49,160 nt of DNA from NCBI GenBank assembly GCA_040902655.1, contig JBBDWV010000004.1, positions 1 through 49,160 of the forward strand, in the 5' to 3' direction. The DNA comes from Mycobacteriales bacterium (GTDB lineage: Bacteria; Actinomycetota; Actinomycetes; Mycobacteriales; SCTD01). The translations under genes were made by a program, and so were the position numbers. The notes under the pieces were generated by a model that did no database searches, had not been told where the DNA came from, and was given only the letters and a program-made list of their open reading frames with translations. Positions 11,430-49,160 of this stretch are shown here, in pieces. Numbering within the stretch: the stretch's first letter is position 1; each line of letters opens with the position of its first letter.

Positions 11430-12188
11430 CGCGAGCACCAGCAGCACGGCGCCGGTCGTCACCTCGACCAGCGCGCCCAGGACGTCGCCGGTGATGCCGC
11501 CGATGCGCCGCACCGCGTGGCGGCGCAGCAGCCGGGCCACCCCCAGCCCGGCCAGCACGGCCGCCGCCGGGAGCAGCAGCGCCCCCCGGCCGTCGGCCTC
11601 GAGCGCGAGCGCCGCGGTGCCGACAGCGGCGGCGGCGACGGCCAGCGCCGCGGCGGTGCCGCGACCGACCGTGCCCGCCACCAGCGCGCCCAGACCCGTC
11701 TGCGCCGCGGCCGGGACGCCGGTGGTGCAGGCGGCGGTGACCGCCACCCGCGCGGTGACCAGCGCGACCAGCAGCGCCGTCCCGCCGTGGCCTGCGTCCA
11801 GGCAGGCTGCCAGGGCCGCGACCTGGACGAGCAGGACGAGCACGACGGCCACGAGTCCGAGCGCCCCCACATCAGGTGCCTTCATGACCTGGCGGGCCGC
11901 CTCGGGCGACCGGTAGCTGCCGAGCCCGTCGGCCAGGTCGGCCAGTCCGTCGAGGTGCAGGCCCCGGGTCAGCAGCGCGTGCAGGGCGATCACCAGCGTC
12001 GCCGCCAGCAGGGGCGAGCCGAGCACGTCGACGATCAGCAGCACCGGGACCAGGACGGCCGCGAGGCCGAGGCCGATCACCGGCGCCAGCGCCATGGCCG
12101 GCCCGGCCGTCGCGCGGTCCAGCCGCTGCGGCCCGCGGACCGGTACGACGGTGAGCGTCGTGAGGGCCAGCCGCAGGCCGTCAGGCAC
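11418..12188 (-). CDS. cobS: Adenosylcobinamide-GDP ribazoletransferase (cobalamin synthase)
   Basis: CobS joins adenosylcobinamide-GDP with alpha-ribazole at the membrane, the last assembly step of cobalamin. It is 256 aa with several hydrophobic helices. The family signature GLHLDGLADLADGLG lies near residue 90, and RRIGGITGDVLGA near the C-terminus matches the conserved tail. It follows the CobU-fusion gene by 39 bp on the same strand, so the two probably form an operon for the late steps. Its stop overlaps the end of the subtilisin gene by 12 bases. The GTG start is the first possible one in the frame; its ribosome-binding site is weak. Confidence 0.93.
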   Translation of the reverse strand: MPDGLRLALTTLTVVPVRGPQRLDRATAGPAMALAPVIGLGLAAVLVPVLLIVDVLGSPLLAATLVIALHALLTRGLHLDGLADLADGLGSYRSPEAARQVMKAPDVGALGLVAVVLVLLVQVAALAACLDAGHGGTALLVALVTARVAVTAACTTGVPAAAQTGLGALVAGTVGRGTAAALAVAAAAVGTAALALEADGRGALLLPAAAVLAGLGVARLLRRHAVRRIGGITGDVLGALVEVTTGAVLLVLALGR

Positions 12189-23589: not shown

Positions 23590-24057
23590 ATGAAGATCGA
23601 GGGTTACCTGTTCGCCTTCATCGCCGTGTTCCTGGTGCCGACGACGATCGTCTACTGGGTGCTGTCGGGCGATCCCACCGGTACGACCTGCCTGGCGCTG
23701 TCGATCGGGCTGGCCTTCATGGTCGGCTACTACCTGCTGTTCACGGCCCGCCGCATGGAGGCGCGTCCCGAGGACCGGCCGGATGCCGAGATCAGCGAGG
23801 GATCCGGGGAGATCGGCTTCTTTCCGCCGCACTCGTGGTGGCCGATCGCGATGGCCGGTGCGTTCACGGTCACCTGCCTCGGCCTGATCATGGGCCCCTT
23901 CCTCGTGATGATCGGCGGCCTCTTCCTCGTGATCACGGTGCTGGGTTTCCTGTTCGAGTACTACGTGGGCATCAACCGCTCGCAGGGCCAGACGCTCGGC
24001 GCTCTGGAGGCGATGGGCGAGCGGCCCACCAGCGTGCACAAGTTCCTGGGCGAGTAG
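23590..24057 (+). CDS. ctaF: Cytochrome c oxidase subunit IV, actinobacterial type
   Basis: CtaF is the small extra membrane subunit found in the actinobacterial bc1-aa3 supercomplex. The protein has 155 aa with hydrophobic stretches at about residues 5-25, 35-55, 82-102 and 105-125, giving four probable helices. MKIEGYLF and FPPHSWWPIAMA near residue 78 are family signatures. It begins four bases after the ctaD stop, with an AGG-containing site upstream, and clearly belongs to the same operon. A strong hairpin follows 60 bases after its stop. ctaE is not in the window. Confidence 0.92.
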   Translation: MKIEGYLFAFIAVFLVPTTIVYWVLSGDPTGTTCLALSIGLAFMVGYYLLFTARRMEARPEDRPDAEISEGSGEIGFFPPHSWWPIAMAGAFTVTCLGLIMGPFLVMIGGLFLVITVLGFLFEYYVGINRSQGQTLGALEAMGERPTSVHKFLGE

Positions 24058-24117
24058 GTCCGCAGACCACCACGGTGCCTCCCGGCCGCGGCGCACAGGA
24101 TCTCCTGAAGCGGTCGA

Positions 24118-24160
24118 TGCAGGACAGGCCGAGAACTGCAGAGGCTCGGCCTGGCCTGCA
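24118..24160 (+). terminator. Hairpin downstream of ctaF
   Basis: TGCAGG-a-CAGGCCGAG (24118-24133) pairs with CTCGGCCTG-g-CCTGCA (24145-24160): a 15-bp stem with one mismatch and an 11-base loop. It is a good candidate to end the cta operon. Confidence 0.65.
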
Positions 24161-24354
24161 ACACCCGGCGCACGTACGGGGGTCGGGCGGCGCCGGGCGT
24201 GCGGGGCTCACAGCACCACTCGCGCGGTGACGCCGCAGAGCCGTGGTCCCGTGTCGGCCCGGGCCCGCCACGCAACTGCCAGTAGCGGCTGCCCGGTCGC
24301 ACCATCGGACATCCCTGCCGCGAGCGAGCGGCCCGACCAAGATCTTCACGCCTG

Positions 24355-24428
24355 GTGATCTTTTGGTTGCTGGATTCGCAGCGGACACGCCGGCGTGTCT
24401 GCTGCGAATCCGGTCTCCAGAAGATCAA
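24355..24428. repeat. Imperfect palindrome of about 70 bp
   Basis: Two 20-bp inner arms (24372-24391 and 24392-24411) are inverted copies with one mismatch and no spacer between them. Outer arms around GATCTT/AAGATC extend the symmetry after a five-base mismatched step. It could form a cruciform or long RNA hairpin. Confidence 0.8.
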
Positions 24429-24496
24429 CTGCCGACGAGCAGCCGTACGAGAAGGCCGGGCCATCGGGGCGGTTCCGGCTCGGGCAGGCTGATCTT

Positions 24497-24534
24497 GGTG
24501 CCAGTGCCTCGCACAAGCGGGCGCTGCTGGCACC
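24497..24534. repeat. Inverted repeat GGTGCCAG/CTGGCACC
   Basis: Perfect 8-bp arms (24497-24504, 24527-24534) with a 22-base loop that contains a small TGC/GCA stem. Confidence 0.6.
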
Positions 24535-24700
24535 GAGAACCGGCGTGGCCGGAGCTGGACCTCCTGAGGTGGCGGTAGCGGCTGCCCCGTCGCCCGACGT
24601 ATTGCGACGTCGCGGAGCCGCCAGTAGCGGCGGCCGCTGGCGGGGGACCCGCCGCGGGGGCGAACGGGGTGCGCCTCGCACCCCGCGACGCTCCGCTCCG

Positions 24701-24706
24701 TAGGGT
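24701..24706 (+). promoter_or_regulatory. Putative -10 of gpr
   Basis: TAGGGT, 6 nt before the ATG at 24713. Confidence 0.5.
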
Positions 24707-24712
24707 CGGGGG

Positions 24713-25744
24713 ATGGCCGACGCGTACCTCCCTGCCCCGGACCGCTACGAGCAGATGACCTACCGCCGATGCGGGCGCAGCGGCCTGCGTCTGCCATTGC
24801 TCTCGCTCGGCTTCTGGTGGAACTTCGGGGACGACCGCCCGATCCAGACGCAGCGGGCGGTGGTGCGCCGAGCCTTCGACCTCGGCATCACGCACTTCGA
24901 CCTGGCCAACAACTACGGCCCGCCGTACGGCTCGGCAGAAGCCAACCTCGGGCGGATCCTGCGCGAGGACTTCCGCGGGCTGCGCGACGAGCTGGTGATC
25001 AGCACCAAGGCCGGTTGGGACATGTGGCCCGGGCCGTACGGCGACCTCGGCTCACGCAAGTACCTGCTGGCCAGCCTGGATGCGAGCCTGCAGCGGCTGG
25101 GGCTGGACCACGTCGACATCTACTACCACCACCGGCCGGACCCCGACACCCCGCTCGAGGAGTCGATGGGTGCGCTGCACAGCGCGGTCCAGTCGGGCAA
25201 GGCGCGCTACGTCGGCATCAGCTCCTACGGCGACGCGCGCACGGCCGAGGCGGTCCGGATCCTGCGCGAGCTCGGGACACCGCTGCTCATCCACCAGCCG
25301 AGCTACTCGATGCTCAACCGGTGGATCGAGGAGGCGCTGCTGGATGTCCTCGACCGTGCGGGCGTCGGTTGCATCGGCTTCACCGCGCTGGCGCAGGGGC
25401 TGCTGACCGACAAGTACCTCGACGGGATGCCCGAGGACAGCCGGATGGCGCGCTACTACAGCCTGGACGCCGGTCAGCTGACCGAGGACAACGTCGGTCG
25501 CCTGCGTGGGCTGAACGCGATCGCCGGGCGGCGGGGGCAGACCCTGGCGCAGCTGGCGCTCGCCTGGGCGCTGCGCGACCGGCGGATGACCTCGCTGGTC
25601 ATCGGCGCCAGCAGCGTCCGGCAGCTGGAGGAGAACGTCGCCGCGCTGGACCGGCTCGACTTCTCCGCCGAGGAGCTCGCCGAGATCGATCGCTTCGCCG
25701 TCGAGGGCGGCGTCGATCTCTGGCGGTCGGTCAGCGTGCAGTAG
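24713..25744 (+). CDS. gpr: L-glyceraldehyde 3-phosphate reductase-like aldo/keto reductase
   Basis: The 343-aa product resembles E. coli YghZ/Gpr along its length: RYEQMTYRRCGRSGLRLP, then THFDLANNYGPPYGSAE near residue 64, ISTKAGWDMWPGPYG near 101, and YYHHRPDPDTPLEE near 141. These include the tetrad Asp, Tyr, Lys and His. LIHQPSYSMLNRW and VIGASSVRQLEENV also match. Gpr reduces L-glyceraldehyde 3-phosphate and, in other hosts, methylglyoxal. It is likely leaderless. The gene is convergent with yaaA and follows the long non-coding stretch. The exact substrate remains an inference by homology. Confidence 0.9.
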   Translation: MADAYLPAPDRYEQMTYRRCGRSGLRLPLLSLGFWWNFGDDRPIQTQRAVVRRAFDLGITHFDLANNYGPPYGSAEANLGRILREDFRGLRDELVISTKAGWDMWPGPYGDLGSRKYLLASLDASLQRLGLDHVDIYYHHRPDPDTPLEESMGALHSAVQSGKARYVGISSYGDARTAEAVRILRELGTPLLIHQPSYSMLNRWIEEALLDVLDRAGVGCIGFTALAQGLLTDKYLDGMPEDSRMARYYSLDAGQLTEDNVGRLRGLNAIAGRRGQTLAQLALAWALRDRRMTSLVIGASSVRQLEENVAALDRLDFSAEELAEIDRFAVEGGVDLWRSVSVQ

Positions 25745-34897: not shown

Positions 34898-35256
34898 CCC
34901 CGCGGCGTCGTGCCCCGGCGCGGAGCCCGCAGGCGGTAGACTCGGATCCGGCTCGCCTCCCGGGTCCGCAGCGCACCTGTGTGGGCTGCCGGGCGAAGGC
35001 GGCGAAGTCCGACCTGCTGCGCGTCGTCGGTGTCGAGGGCCAGGCTGGGAGCATCCAGTTGACCCCCGACCCCGCCGGGCGCCTGCCGGGACGAGGGGCC
35101 TGCGTGCACCTCGACCCCCGGTGCATCGACCTCGCCGACAAGCGGCGGGCGTTCCCCCGGGCCCTGCGCCTGGCCGGACCGCTCGACGTGTCGCCGGTGC
35201 GGGAGCACGTAGCAGGAGTCAGCCCACCAACCGATCAGAGCGGATCTCCTCGATGA
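34894..35256 (+). CDS. ylxR: YlxR family RNA-binding protein
   Basis: The 120-aa protein holds the YlxR/DUF448 fold: [19 protein letters not shown] near residue 27, then [16 protein letters not shown] near residue 62. The basic surface is thought to bind RNA; a role in ribosome assembly or transcription control has been suggested for relatives. Its Arg/Pro-rich N-terminus is longer than in Bacillus. It overlaps nusA by four bases (GTGA) and is the usual neighbour of infB. A later start near residue 20 cannot be excluded. Confidence 0.9.
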
Positions 35257-35283
35257 GCACTCGATGAGCCAGTCCCGATGAGC
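35251..35283 (+). repeat. Three direct CGATGAGC repeats before infB
   Basis: CGATGAGC occurs at 35251, 35262 and 35276, beginning at the ylxR stop codon region and ending about 58 bp before infB. Each copy holds an ATG, so short frames overlap here. The pattern looks like that seen before infB in other actinobacteria. Confidence 0.7.
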
Positions 35284-35340
35284 ACGCCCATGCAGTAACC
35301 ACCAGGCGCGGGAACGACCCGGGCCGTACAAAGGAGCACA

Positions 35341-38172
35341 GTGCCCGGAAAAGCCCGAGTCCATGAGCTCGCCAAAGAGCTCGGCATGGACAGCAAGAGC
35401 GTACTGACCTGGTTGAAGGACAACGGCGAGTTCGTCAAGTCCGCCTCCTCGACCGTCGAGGCCCCCGTCGCGCGCAAGCTGCGCGAGGCCTTCCCGGCCG
35501 CTGCACCGGCTCCCGCTGCCAAGGCGGTCGCCAAGCCGGCGGCCGCTGCGCGTAAACCCGCAGCACCTGCCGCTCCCGCTGAGCCTGCGGCTCCCGCCGG
35601 GCCTGCAGCCTCCCCGGCTGCCCCGGCCGGCGCGCCGCGTCCCGGAGCGCCGATGCCCGGCCCGGTGCGCCCGGCCGCCGCGGCTGCCGCTCCGGCGGCG
35701 CCCGCTGCCCCGGCCCCCGGCGGCCGACCGGCGCCCGGACCGCGTCCGGGCAACAACCCCTTCAGCTCCCCGTCCGACGGCACGCCGGGGATGCCCCCGC
35801 GGCCGCCGGCAGCCCGCCCGGCCCCGTCGCCCGCGCCCGGCCTGCCGCCGCGCCCGGGCGGACCCGGTGCAGCGCCCTCACCCGCGGGCATGCCCCGCCC
35901 GGGTGGTTCGGTGCCCGGCATGCCGCCCCGTCCGGCGGCGGCGCGTCCCGCCCCGGCCGGTCCGCGCCCCGGTCCGGGCATGTTCCCGCCCCGGGCGGGT
36001 GGTCCGGCCGGTCCCGGCGCCGGTGGTCCCCGCCCCGGCCCAGGCATGTTCCCGCCCCGCTCCGGTGGCACAGGTGCGCGCCCGGGTATGCCCGGCGCCC
36101 GTCCCGCCGGTGCTCCGGGAGGTCGTCCCGGTGGTGGCCCCGGTGGTCCCGGTGGCGGTGGCGGCTTCGCCGGCCGTCCCGGTGGCGGCGGTTTCGGTGG
36201 CCGTCCCGGCGGTCCCCGCGGTGGTGCCGGCCGTGGTGGTCCCACCCCCGGTGCGTTCGGCCGCGGTCCCGGTGGCCGGCCGACCCGCGGGCGCAAGAGC
36301 AAGAAGCAGCGGCGTCAGGAGTTCGACAACCTGGCCGCTCCGACGATGGGCGGCGGCATCGCCCGCGGCAACGGTGAGGCCGTCCGGCTGACCCGTGGGG
36401 CCTCCCTGGCCGACTTCGCGGACAAGATCAATGCCAACCCGGGCTCGCTGGTGCAGGTCGCGTTCACCGAGCTGGGCGAGATGGTGACGGCGACCCAGTC
36501 GTGCACCGACGAGACCCTGCTGCTGCTGGGCACGCACCTGGGCTACAACGTCTCGATCGTCAGCCCCGAGGAAGAGGACGCGGCGCTGCTGGAGCGCTTC
36601 GACCTCACCTTCGGCGGCGACTACGACGAGGAGGCCGACCTGGTCTCGCGTCCGCCGGTCGTGACGATCATGGGTCACGTCGACCACGGCAAGACCAAGC
36701 TCCTCGACGCCATCCGCTCCACCGATGTCGTCAAGGGCGAGGCCGGTGGCATCACCCAGCACATCGGCGCCTACCAGGTGCACCACCCGGTCGAGGGCGG
36801 GGTGCGCGAGCTGACCTTCATCGACACCCCGGGCCACGAGGCGTTCACGGCCATGCGTGCCCGTGGTGCCAAGGTCACCGACATCGCCGTGCTGGTGGTG
36901 GCGGCCGACGACGGTGTCAAGCCACAGACGATCGAGGCGCTCAACCACGCGCAGGCCGCCGAGGTCCCGATCGTGGTCGCCGTCAACAAGATCGACAAGG
37001 AGGGGGCCGACCCCGCCAAGGTGCGCGGCCAGCTCACCGAGTACGGCCTGGTGGCCGAGGAGTACGGCGGCGACACGATGTTCGTCGATGTCTCCGCGCT
37101 GGCCGGCCGTGGTCTGGAGGAGCTGCTCGACGCGATCCTGCTGACGACCGATGCCGCGCTCGAGCTGCTCGAGGACGCCAGCGTCGACGCGCAGGGCGTC
37201 GCCATCGAGGCCCGGCTCGACAAGGGCCGCGGCGCCGTGGCGACCGTGCTGGTGCAGCGCGGCACGCTGCGCGTCGGTGACTCGATCGTCGCCGGTGACG
37301 CCTTCGGTCGCGTCCGGGCCATGCTCAACGAGCGGGGCGAGAACGTCCAGGAAGCCAGCCCGGGTCAGCCGGTCCAGGTGCTCGGCTTCACCAGCGTCCC
37401 CGGCGCCGGTGACAACTTCCTCGTCGTCGGGGAGGACCGCGTCGCCCGCCAGATCGCCGAGCAGCGGGCTGCCCGGGAGCGCAACGCCGCTCTCGCGCAG
37501 AGCCGTGGGCGCCCGACGCTGGAGTCGCTGTTCGACCGCCTCAAGGAGGGTGAGAACACCCAGCTCAACCTCATCCTCAAGGGTGACGTGTCCGGTTCGG
37601 TCGAGGCCGTCGAGGACGCGCTGCTCAAGATCGAGGTGAGCGACGAGGTGTCGCTGCGGATCATCCACCGCGGCGTCGGCGCGATCACGGAGAACGACGT
37701 CACGCTGGCGTCCGCCTCCGACGCCGTCATCCTCGGCTTCAACGTCCGGGCCGAGGGCAACGCCCGCGACCTGGCCGACCGCGAGAACGTCGACGTCCGC
37801 TACTACTCGGTCATCTACGCCGCGATCGAGGACGTCGAGGCGGCCCTCAAGGGCATGCTCAAGCCGGAGTACGAGGAGGTCTCGCTCGGCACCGCCGAGG
37901 TCCGCGAGGTCTTCCGGGTGCCGAAGATCGGCAACATCGCCGGCTCGATCGTGCGCAACGGCCTGATCCGCCGCAACACCAAGGCCCGGCTGCTCCGCGA
38001 TGGGGTCGTCGTCAAGGACGACCTGTCGGTGGAGTCGCTGCGCCGCTTCAAGGACGACGCGACCGAGGTCCGCGAAGGATACGAGTGCGGTATCGGCCTC
38101 GGGAAGTTCAACGACATCAAGACCGGTGATGTGATCGAGACCTGGGAGATGCGGGAGATTCCTCGCACGTAA
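35341..38172 (+). CDS. infB: Translation initiation factor IF-2
   Basis: IF-2 is the GTPase that brings initiator tRNA to the 30S subunit and promotes subunit joining. The 943-aa product starts [18 protein letters not shown], the IF-2 N-terminal domain. A Pro/Ala-rich then Gly/Arg/Pro-rich disordered linker runs over about residues 55-320. The GTPase domain follows with G1 GHVDHGKT (about 444), G3 DTPGHEAF (about 495) and G4 NKID (about 549), then the beta-barrel, and the C-terminal fMet-tRNA domains with [18 protein letters not shown] four bases before the GTG sets the start. A hairpin with a TTCG loop follows the stop. Confidence 0.97.
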
Positions 38173-49131: not shown

Positions 49132-49160
49132 CAGGTCAAGATTTCCGGATTCTTGACCTG
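49132..49160. repeat. Palindrome at the right edge
   Basis: CAGGTCAAGA and TCTTGACCTG are perfect 10-bp arms around a nine-base, nearly symmetric centre. It may be a hairpin or operator for a gene beyond the window. Confidence 0.75.

Follow-up and report, generated by a model that had tools for sequence, protein, structure and literature searches.

A dispersed palindromic hairpin of uncultured Frankiales and its association with AbiEi-DUF559-type nuclease-like genes

What is the palindrome that lies in a non-coding spacer behind the cytochrome c oxidase genes of this actinobacterium, and which gene, if any, is its partner? The window, that is, the whole stretch of 49,160 nucleotides that was analysed, is contig C4 of a 62-contig assembly of 3.56 Mb (G000, completeness 98%). 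Genes were called with a simple codon-usage gene finder and named by Pfam, and the comparison genomes (G-numbers) are mostly MAGs. We propose, with a probability of roughly 0.6, that the palindrome belongs to a family of REP-like mobile hairpins, called E1 here, which a cognate AbiEi-DUF559 nuclease spreads or maintains; such a system would be convergent with REP/RAYT. The window palindrome is likely a non-autonomous copy of this family, with a gene elsewhere in the genome, geneX, as its likely cognate gene.

The spacer behind ctaF

The earlier note placed a non-coding gap of 655 nt past the cytochrome c oxidase gene, and its coordinates are exact (Table 1). The palindrome that was described in the gap is present at 24349-24434, with arms of 43 nt that are 79% complementary and have zero spacer between them. 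Its score of 29.2 is the highest in the window, where the runner-up scores 22.0; the best palindromes in three Markov-1 random sequences of 49 kb score 15.2-17.3. Folding of 24330-24450 as RNA gives -63.9 kcal/mol for the + strand (z -6.35, 0 of 200 shuffles as good) and a z of -3.77 for the - strand (1 of 200 shuffles as good). A lower GC content had also been claimed, which is correct for the palindrome (0.57-0.60, against 0.73 for the window) but not for the entire spacer (0.725).

The gap was said to hold several hairpins, and besides the main palindrome three are found. The ordinary hairpin nearest to ctaF is probably the terminator of the cta genes, and by eye a hairpin directly past the ctaF stop also occurs in several relatives. 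Of the two further hairpins, one lies at 24493-24538 and the other, which is small, at 24650-24690. The repeated words that had been pointed out are present as parts of dispersed repeats. The proposal that the gap contains the remains of a mobile element was only partly right, in that the spacer is a mosaic of such repeats.

CtaF relatives are encoded at 14 loci, and the closest eight are from uncultured Frankiales or Frankineae MAGs. No clear E1 was seen in the 11 of 14 ctaF spacers inspected by eye, and the E1 model gave no match at E <= 0.005 on all 14 loci; a marginal match is present in the L127 spacer (17.8 bits, E 0.034) and the other matches are weak. The E1 site after ctaF is not clearly shared by the relatives, and the window copy is one E1 copy carried inside a larger composite repeat and lying amid a mosaic of other repeats. 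The ctaF spacers of two Frankiales MAGs (L131, L133) have a different hairpin of ~70 nt, TTCGCCGAGTGTCG..CGACACTCGGCG, and similar feet flank the gene at L328. At the right end of the window's spacer, TAGGGT lies six bases upstream of the downstream gene's ATG (window 24701-24713) and by eye is like a leaderless actinobacterial promoter.

Table 1. Features of the spacer and its neighbours, and the gene enclosed by copies of a second hairpin family
Feature	Position	Strand	Remark
Cytochrome c oxidase subunit IV gene (ctaF)	23590-24057		left neighbour of the spacer
Non-coding spacer	24058..24712	.	655 nt, mosaic of dispersed repeats
Ordinary hairpin	24111..24167	+	53 nt past the ctaF stop
Repeat C fragment	24278..24300	+	opposite side of E1 from the repeat C copy
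Class II unit	24337..24452	+	~116-121 bp, encloses E1
E1 palindromic element	24350..24433	.	GATC feet, compensating arms, centre GACACGCCGGCGTGTC
E3 copy	24492..24552	+	second hairpin repeat, TGATCTTGGTGCCAG...CTGGCACCGAGAACCGGCGTGGCC
Repeat C copy	24573..24631	+	third repeat, GTAGCGGCTGCCC...GGAGCCGCCAGTA
Aldo/keto reductase gene	start 24713		right neighbour of the spacer
E2-flanked gene	L141:1646-2581 (G008:C11)		311 aa, between two E2 copies

Copies, structure and spread of E1

The earlier note had named copy number as a check, with a single copy in the genome pointing to plain spacer DNA. E1 was found in 30 copies in G000, which rules out plain spacer and agrees with the suggestion of a repeated REP- or MITE-like palindrome, as do the relatives within the family. 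All of these copies are intergenic wherever both neighbours are known; for four of the 30 the stretch examined shows a gene on one side only, and two touch a stop codon. The class II unit occurs in 15 copies including that of the window, with at least 91.9% identity over 94-121 bp in the G000 stretches examined, and others are diverged single copies.

The E1 hairpin is 70-85 nt long. GATC is found at both feet in 120 of the 123 copies collected, and the centre CGCCGGCG is complete in 81 of 123 and at least half present in 122, while the arms vary by lineage yet still pair. The covariance model R1 has matches in 20 of 41 genomes, namely 19 of the 24 in an uncultured Frankiales family and 1 of 17 others. 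A wider model was run across the order with strict filters and only 11 candidates scored per genome, and detected E1 in 59 of 397 genomes; outside the family E1 is sparse. An exact degenerate E1 pattern had 0 matches across the genome contigs.

Compensatory change in relatives had been named as a further check against plain spacer, and double changes do exceed those in shuffles. Among 26 copies that were collected by DNA search from three genomes, 83% of the cells pair and 66 cells have double changes, against 34.7 in shuffles. Two of the five covariation measures are not clearly above the shuffles (30 and 259 of 500); neither the number of pairs with double changes (14 against 11.3) nor that of pair types (37 against 36.7) is clearly raised. 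An alignment of 142 matches was fitted to the model, since MAFFT mispaired the shorter copies of G012 and G017, and has 771 double-change cells against 347 with both strands counted, a count that is partly built in because matches chosen by a model are rewarded for pairing. On the read-through strand G-U mismatches are as common as A-C mismatches (45:44 and 35:32 in two alignments), and therefore the data do not favour RNA. A structured RNA, taken as the main explanation, finds no support in these ratios or in the Rfam search (0 matches above gathering score in the window), although the pairing itself is conserved.

Some E1 copies are found at orthologous places across genera. The mean identity of 17 such pairs is 0.69, these being hand-picked from five site sets with some weaker pairs left out, and identity is 0.80-0.87 within one genome and 0.65-0.77 between genomes at large. 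E1 copies thus resemble the copies of their own genome more than the copies at orthologous sites elsewhere. Copies drawn from a genome's own pool seem to overwrite those at its E1 sites or to be re-inserted there. No transposition, empty site or insertion event was seen among the E1 copies. Some copies occur in pairs: all five tandem pairs seen in G017 (C143, C188, C170, C270, C48) start exactly 84 nt apart, and single doublets in G006 and G020 have start-to-start spacings of 112 and 124 nt. Near position 11490 of G006:C321 (L124), another palindrome, GATCATGCAGTT..AACTGCATGATC, lies beside an E1 copy.

Nuclease-like genes between matched hairpins

The candidate partner gene, geneX, was reached by following one orthologous E1 site. 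It lies at C16:152487-153497 of G000 and has one E1 copy at each end. Its product consists of an AbiEi-like N-terminal part and a C-terminal PD-(D/E)XK nuclease domain of the DUF559/MTES_1575/Vsr type. By itself geneX gives single Pfam matches below the cut-off; in a scan of 41 homologues, 35 match one PADLOC AbiEi model, 22 MTES_1575, 18 DUF559 and 5 Pfam AbiEi_4. The protein alignment comprises these 41 of the 56 readable homologue proteins. E230, D262 and R305 are invariant in it, and E273, D275, H280 and D289 are kept in at least 90%; the conserved acidic residues are presumably catalytic, the role predicted from PD-(D/E)XK nucleases. Against the PDB, the family profile matches endonuclease-like proteins of solved structure, namely 3hrl (E 2.9e-8) and PvuRts1I (E 8e-4).

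Strong orthologues of geneX are present at 13 loci in 12 genomes (E <= 2.6e-39), and at 8 of the 13 E1 is found on both flanks (E <= 0.004; L316, L317, L318, L319, L323, L324, L327 and L340). The second match is only partial at L323 and L324; that of L340, at the end of a contig, folds back on itself perfectly and is perhaps an assembly artefact. E1 lies on one flank of L325, and L320, L321, L322 and L326 have no flanking E1 at this threshold; one marginal match lies beside L322 (E 0.019), and L320 and L325 have matched flank repeats of a diverged type. In G008 the gene is broken and both flanking E1 copies are still there. G017 has at least 31 E1 copies and no close geneX (best E 9.4e-17; this MAG is 84% complete).

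The neighbours at 8 of the 13 loci are an FtsW/RodA-type gene and/or a radical SAM gene. Six intact loci besides that of G000 share these neighbours; their geneX proteins have 39-55% identity to the G000 one, against 67-95% for the radical SAM and rodA-type neighbours, so that geneX evolves faster than the genes beside it. Searches for the geneX profile in viral contigs, for geneX in phage records and for the E2-linked protein in plasmids all returned none, which fits a chromosomal, domesticated gene.

Is the pairing of gene and hairpin confined to E1? Sixty homologue loci were returned, of which 57 entered the flank test and 53 have both flanks; L341 and L371, which are second pieces of counted genes, and the fragment L372 were left out. 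Matching repeats on both flanks (score >= 30) are present at 29 of the 53 testable loci and at 2 of 306 genes drawn at random from G024 and G030, a set from which homologues had been removed (Fisher p 7e-26, a value that overstates independence because the homologue loci are related to each other). In two additional controls the counts were 2 of 155 for genes of the other loci and 0 of 23 for those of the window. Outside the Frankiales family 8 of 17 loci have matches, and 24 of the 53 loci have none at score 30. Self-complementarity exceeds that of 49 of 50 shuffles for both repeats at 21 of the 29 matched loci, and for at least one of the two at 26. The association of geneX-type genes with hairpins is well supported, and the matched repeats that enclose such genes occur in several lineages and come from several hairpin families.

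The flank repeat sequences are mostly gene-specific. Dispersed copies of four flanking families were sought in 400-kb samples of their genomes. The family of L373 (G024) has three further copies, all intergenic, with none in another genome or in shuffles; that of L329 (G030) has one weak intergenic copy, and the samples contain no dispersed copy for L359 and a single weak match, inside a gene, for L366. A second palindrome family, E2, was found by DNA alone. It has at least 15 copies in G000, and related copies occur in G002, G003, G008 and G016. In G008 two neighbouring E2 copies enclose a gene that is of geneX's general type but belongs to another subfamily, and whose 311-aa product has no Pfam match; the occurrence of E2 around another such gene is what the association of gene and hairpin predicts.

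Two observations concern single loci. Related geneX-type genes at G000:C49:11617-12378 (L360) and in G005:C66 (L361) share the flanking hairpin pair GCGTCCTGCTG..CAGCAGGACGC. At L324 (G011:C17) the genes on either side of the geneX relative match nucleotidyltransferases weakly (DUF2204, DUF6036), an arrangement unlike the other loci that is possibly linked to an AbiE toxin-antitoxin origin.

Explanations and known systems

How might a nuclease maintain a hairpin family? The geneX protein would recognise folded or double-stranded E1 through its constant feet and centre and would cut DNA; repair or copying after the cut could then spread or overwrite E1 copies. The cut might fall at the centre or the feet and be followed by copying through repair, or it might be made in the single-stranded hairpin. 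Copies would persist chiefly in spacers, often just past stop codons. The mobilisation of E1 by geneX is something that we infer from this arrangement.

The position of the copies at gene ends is also what would be expected if E1 were a bidirectional terminator or a 3'-UTR RNA hairpin selected there, with an incidental gene association, and the strong fold of E1 agrees with this. Facing gene 3' ends are within 60 nt of E1 in 30 of 41 cases in G012 and 28 of 41 in G017, and copies placed between divergent genes number 2 of 31 and 0 of 31 in these two genomes. The preference is weak in G000, however, with 8 of 26 facing 3' ends within this distance (8 of 18 in G008) and four copies each of 30 between convergent and between divergent genes. 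The window copy is 298 nt past the stop, behind another hairpin. A terminator needs no conserved sequence at centre and feet, both of which E1 has, it is not helped by the equal numbers of G-U and A-C mismatches, and it leaves the paired repeats around nuclease-like genes unexplained; we consider this account unlikely. The conserved centre palindrome fits with copies that are fixed, immobile binding sites for a geneX protein in the role of regulator or chromosome organiser, as do the AbiEi-like N-terminus of that protein and the E1 places conserved between genera. But near-identical units at 15 places need copying, the conserved places have arms of the type found elsewhere in the same genome, and the arms pair without sequence conservation; we consider fixed sites about as unlikely as a terminator.

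E1 might also be a MITE, or travel with an ordinary insertion sequence or a composite repeat, and lie near geneX by chance; in favour of this, the class II copies share additional flanking sequence and sit within longer mosaics. Short duplications of 3-5 nt directly at the feet are found in 0 of 62 copies, and 3-nt duplications at offsets 1 and 2 in 2 and 3 of 62, as judged from 7 nt of flank at provisional ends. The Y1 transposase was not found in the genome or genus, and the gene association recurs with unrelated hairpins; we consider this origin very improbable. A chance palindrome in plain spacer DNA is already refuted by the 30 copies, the covariation and the flank test, and has a negligible probability.

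The preferred reading, a REP-like hairpin with a cognate nuclease, draws on a comparison with REP/RAYT. PMC2817692 describes the RAYT gene as flanked by two palindromes, rapidly evolving and coevolving with its palindrome; REP sequences are described in PMC2817692 and PMC3733652 as multi-copy extragenic palindromes that differ between orthologous loci yet stay palindromic. Like REP, REPIN and BIME sequences with their RAYT, E1 is multi-copy, extragenic and often downstream of genes, more weakly so in G000; copies at orthologous sites differ yet stay palindromic, and some are found in doublets of fixed spacing. geneX is like a RAYT gene in being flanked by two hairpin copies at 8 of 13 loci, three of them with a partial or doubtful second copy, in outpacing its neighbours in evolution and in coevolving with its hairpin; the coupling of protein and hairpin is weak over 32 homologues (Mantel 0.20).

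There are also differences. E1 is 70-85 nt long and REP 20-40 nt; when the outer 8 nt of the 123 E1 copies are read, the GTAG/CTAC tag is present in 0 and CGTC/GACG in 13; flanking pairs are direct as well as inverted; and the geneX product is an unrelated AbiEi/DUF559-type protein. A search for the Y1 transposase (PF01797) had 0 matches in G000 and 8 same-genus genomes, with control matches in 5 of 14, and RAYT was rejected as the E1 partner on these grounds. E1/geneX is not a member of REP/RAYT because no Y1 was found, GTAG is absent and the units are longer, but by analogy it may work like one.

Other known systems share single traits. Hairpin DNA is the proposed recognition form of E1, as subterminal hairpin DNA is in IS200/IS605, from which E1 differs in that no Y1 transposase was found in its genome or genus. 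ERIC sequences are intergenic imperfect palindromes of enterobacteria, and their RU-1 units of 127 bp are, by description, like the class II unit, an imperfect intergenic palindrome of ~120 bp; the taxon is another one, and the window has no Rfam match. By protein family geneX is akin to AbiEi, the antitoxin of a type IV toxin-antitoxin system, and to DUF559/MTES_1575/Vsr-type nucleases. Unlike AbiE, it has hairpin flanks and FtsW/RodA and/or radical SAM neighbours at 8 of 13 loci rather than a toxin gene; apart from L324, with its weak matches on both sides, an adjacent AbiEii-type nucleotidyltransferase gene was not found at geneX loci.

REP sequences have been tied to one transposase family. 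If the proposed role of geneX is true, a second, unrelated protein family has the same arrangement of gene plus hairpin and this life style arose more than once. AbiEi-DUF559/Vsr-type genes are currently matched by toxin-antitoxin and unknown-function models, and a large group of proteins of unknown role would gain a testable function; many hairpin repeats between actinobacterial genes could be explained as well. The flank pairs in other actinobacteria hint that bacteria have a way, so far unrecognised, of spreading short DNA hairpins. We give an even chance to the broader idea that mobile hairpin systems are widespread in actinobacteria, each AbiEi-DUF559/Vsr-type nuclease recognising, cutting and spreading its own palindromes of 50-85 nt with copies that flank the gene. 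Among the literature matches listed, from a search covering few subscription journals and no preprints, no title or abstract linked DUF559/AbiEi genes to palindromic repeats.

Some further features of the window and its genome are of note. The 29-nt palindrome at the contig end (window 49132-49160, CAGGTCAAGATTTCCGGATTCTTGACCTG), which the earlier note had likened to the one in the gap, is not a copy, as the E1 model has no match there; it possibly belongs to another hairpin family that broke the assembly. A stretch of 1448 nt at window 34898-36345 has no called gene and probably contains one that the finder missed. The E3 hairpin family (GATCTTGGTGCCAG..CTGGCACCGAGAAC) is present at window 24492-24552 and at the G000 loci L167-L189, with at least 20 matches in G000, and by eye E3 often has E2 and repeat C as neighbours within composite repeats several hundred bp long.
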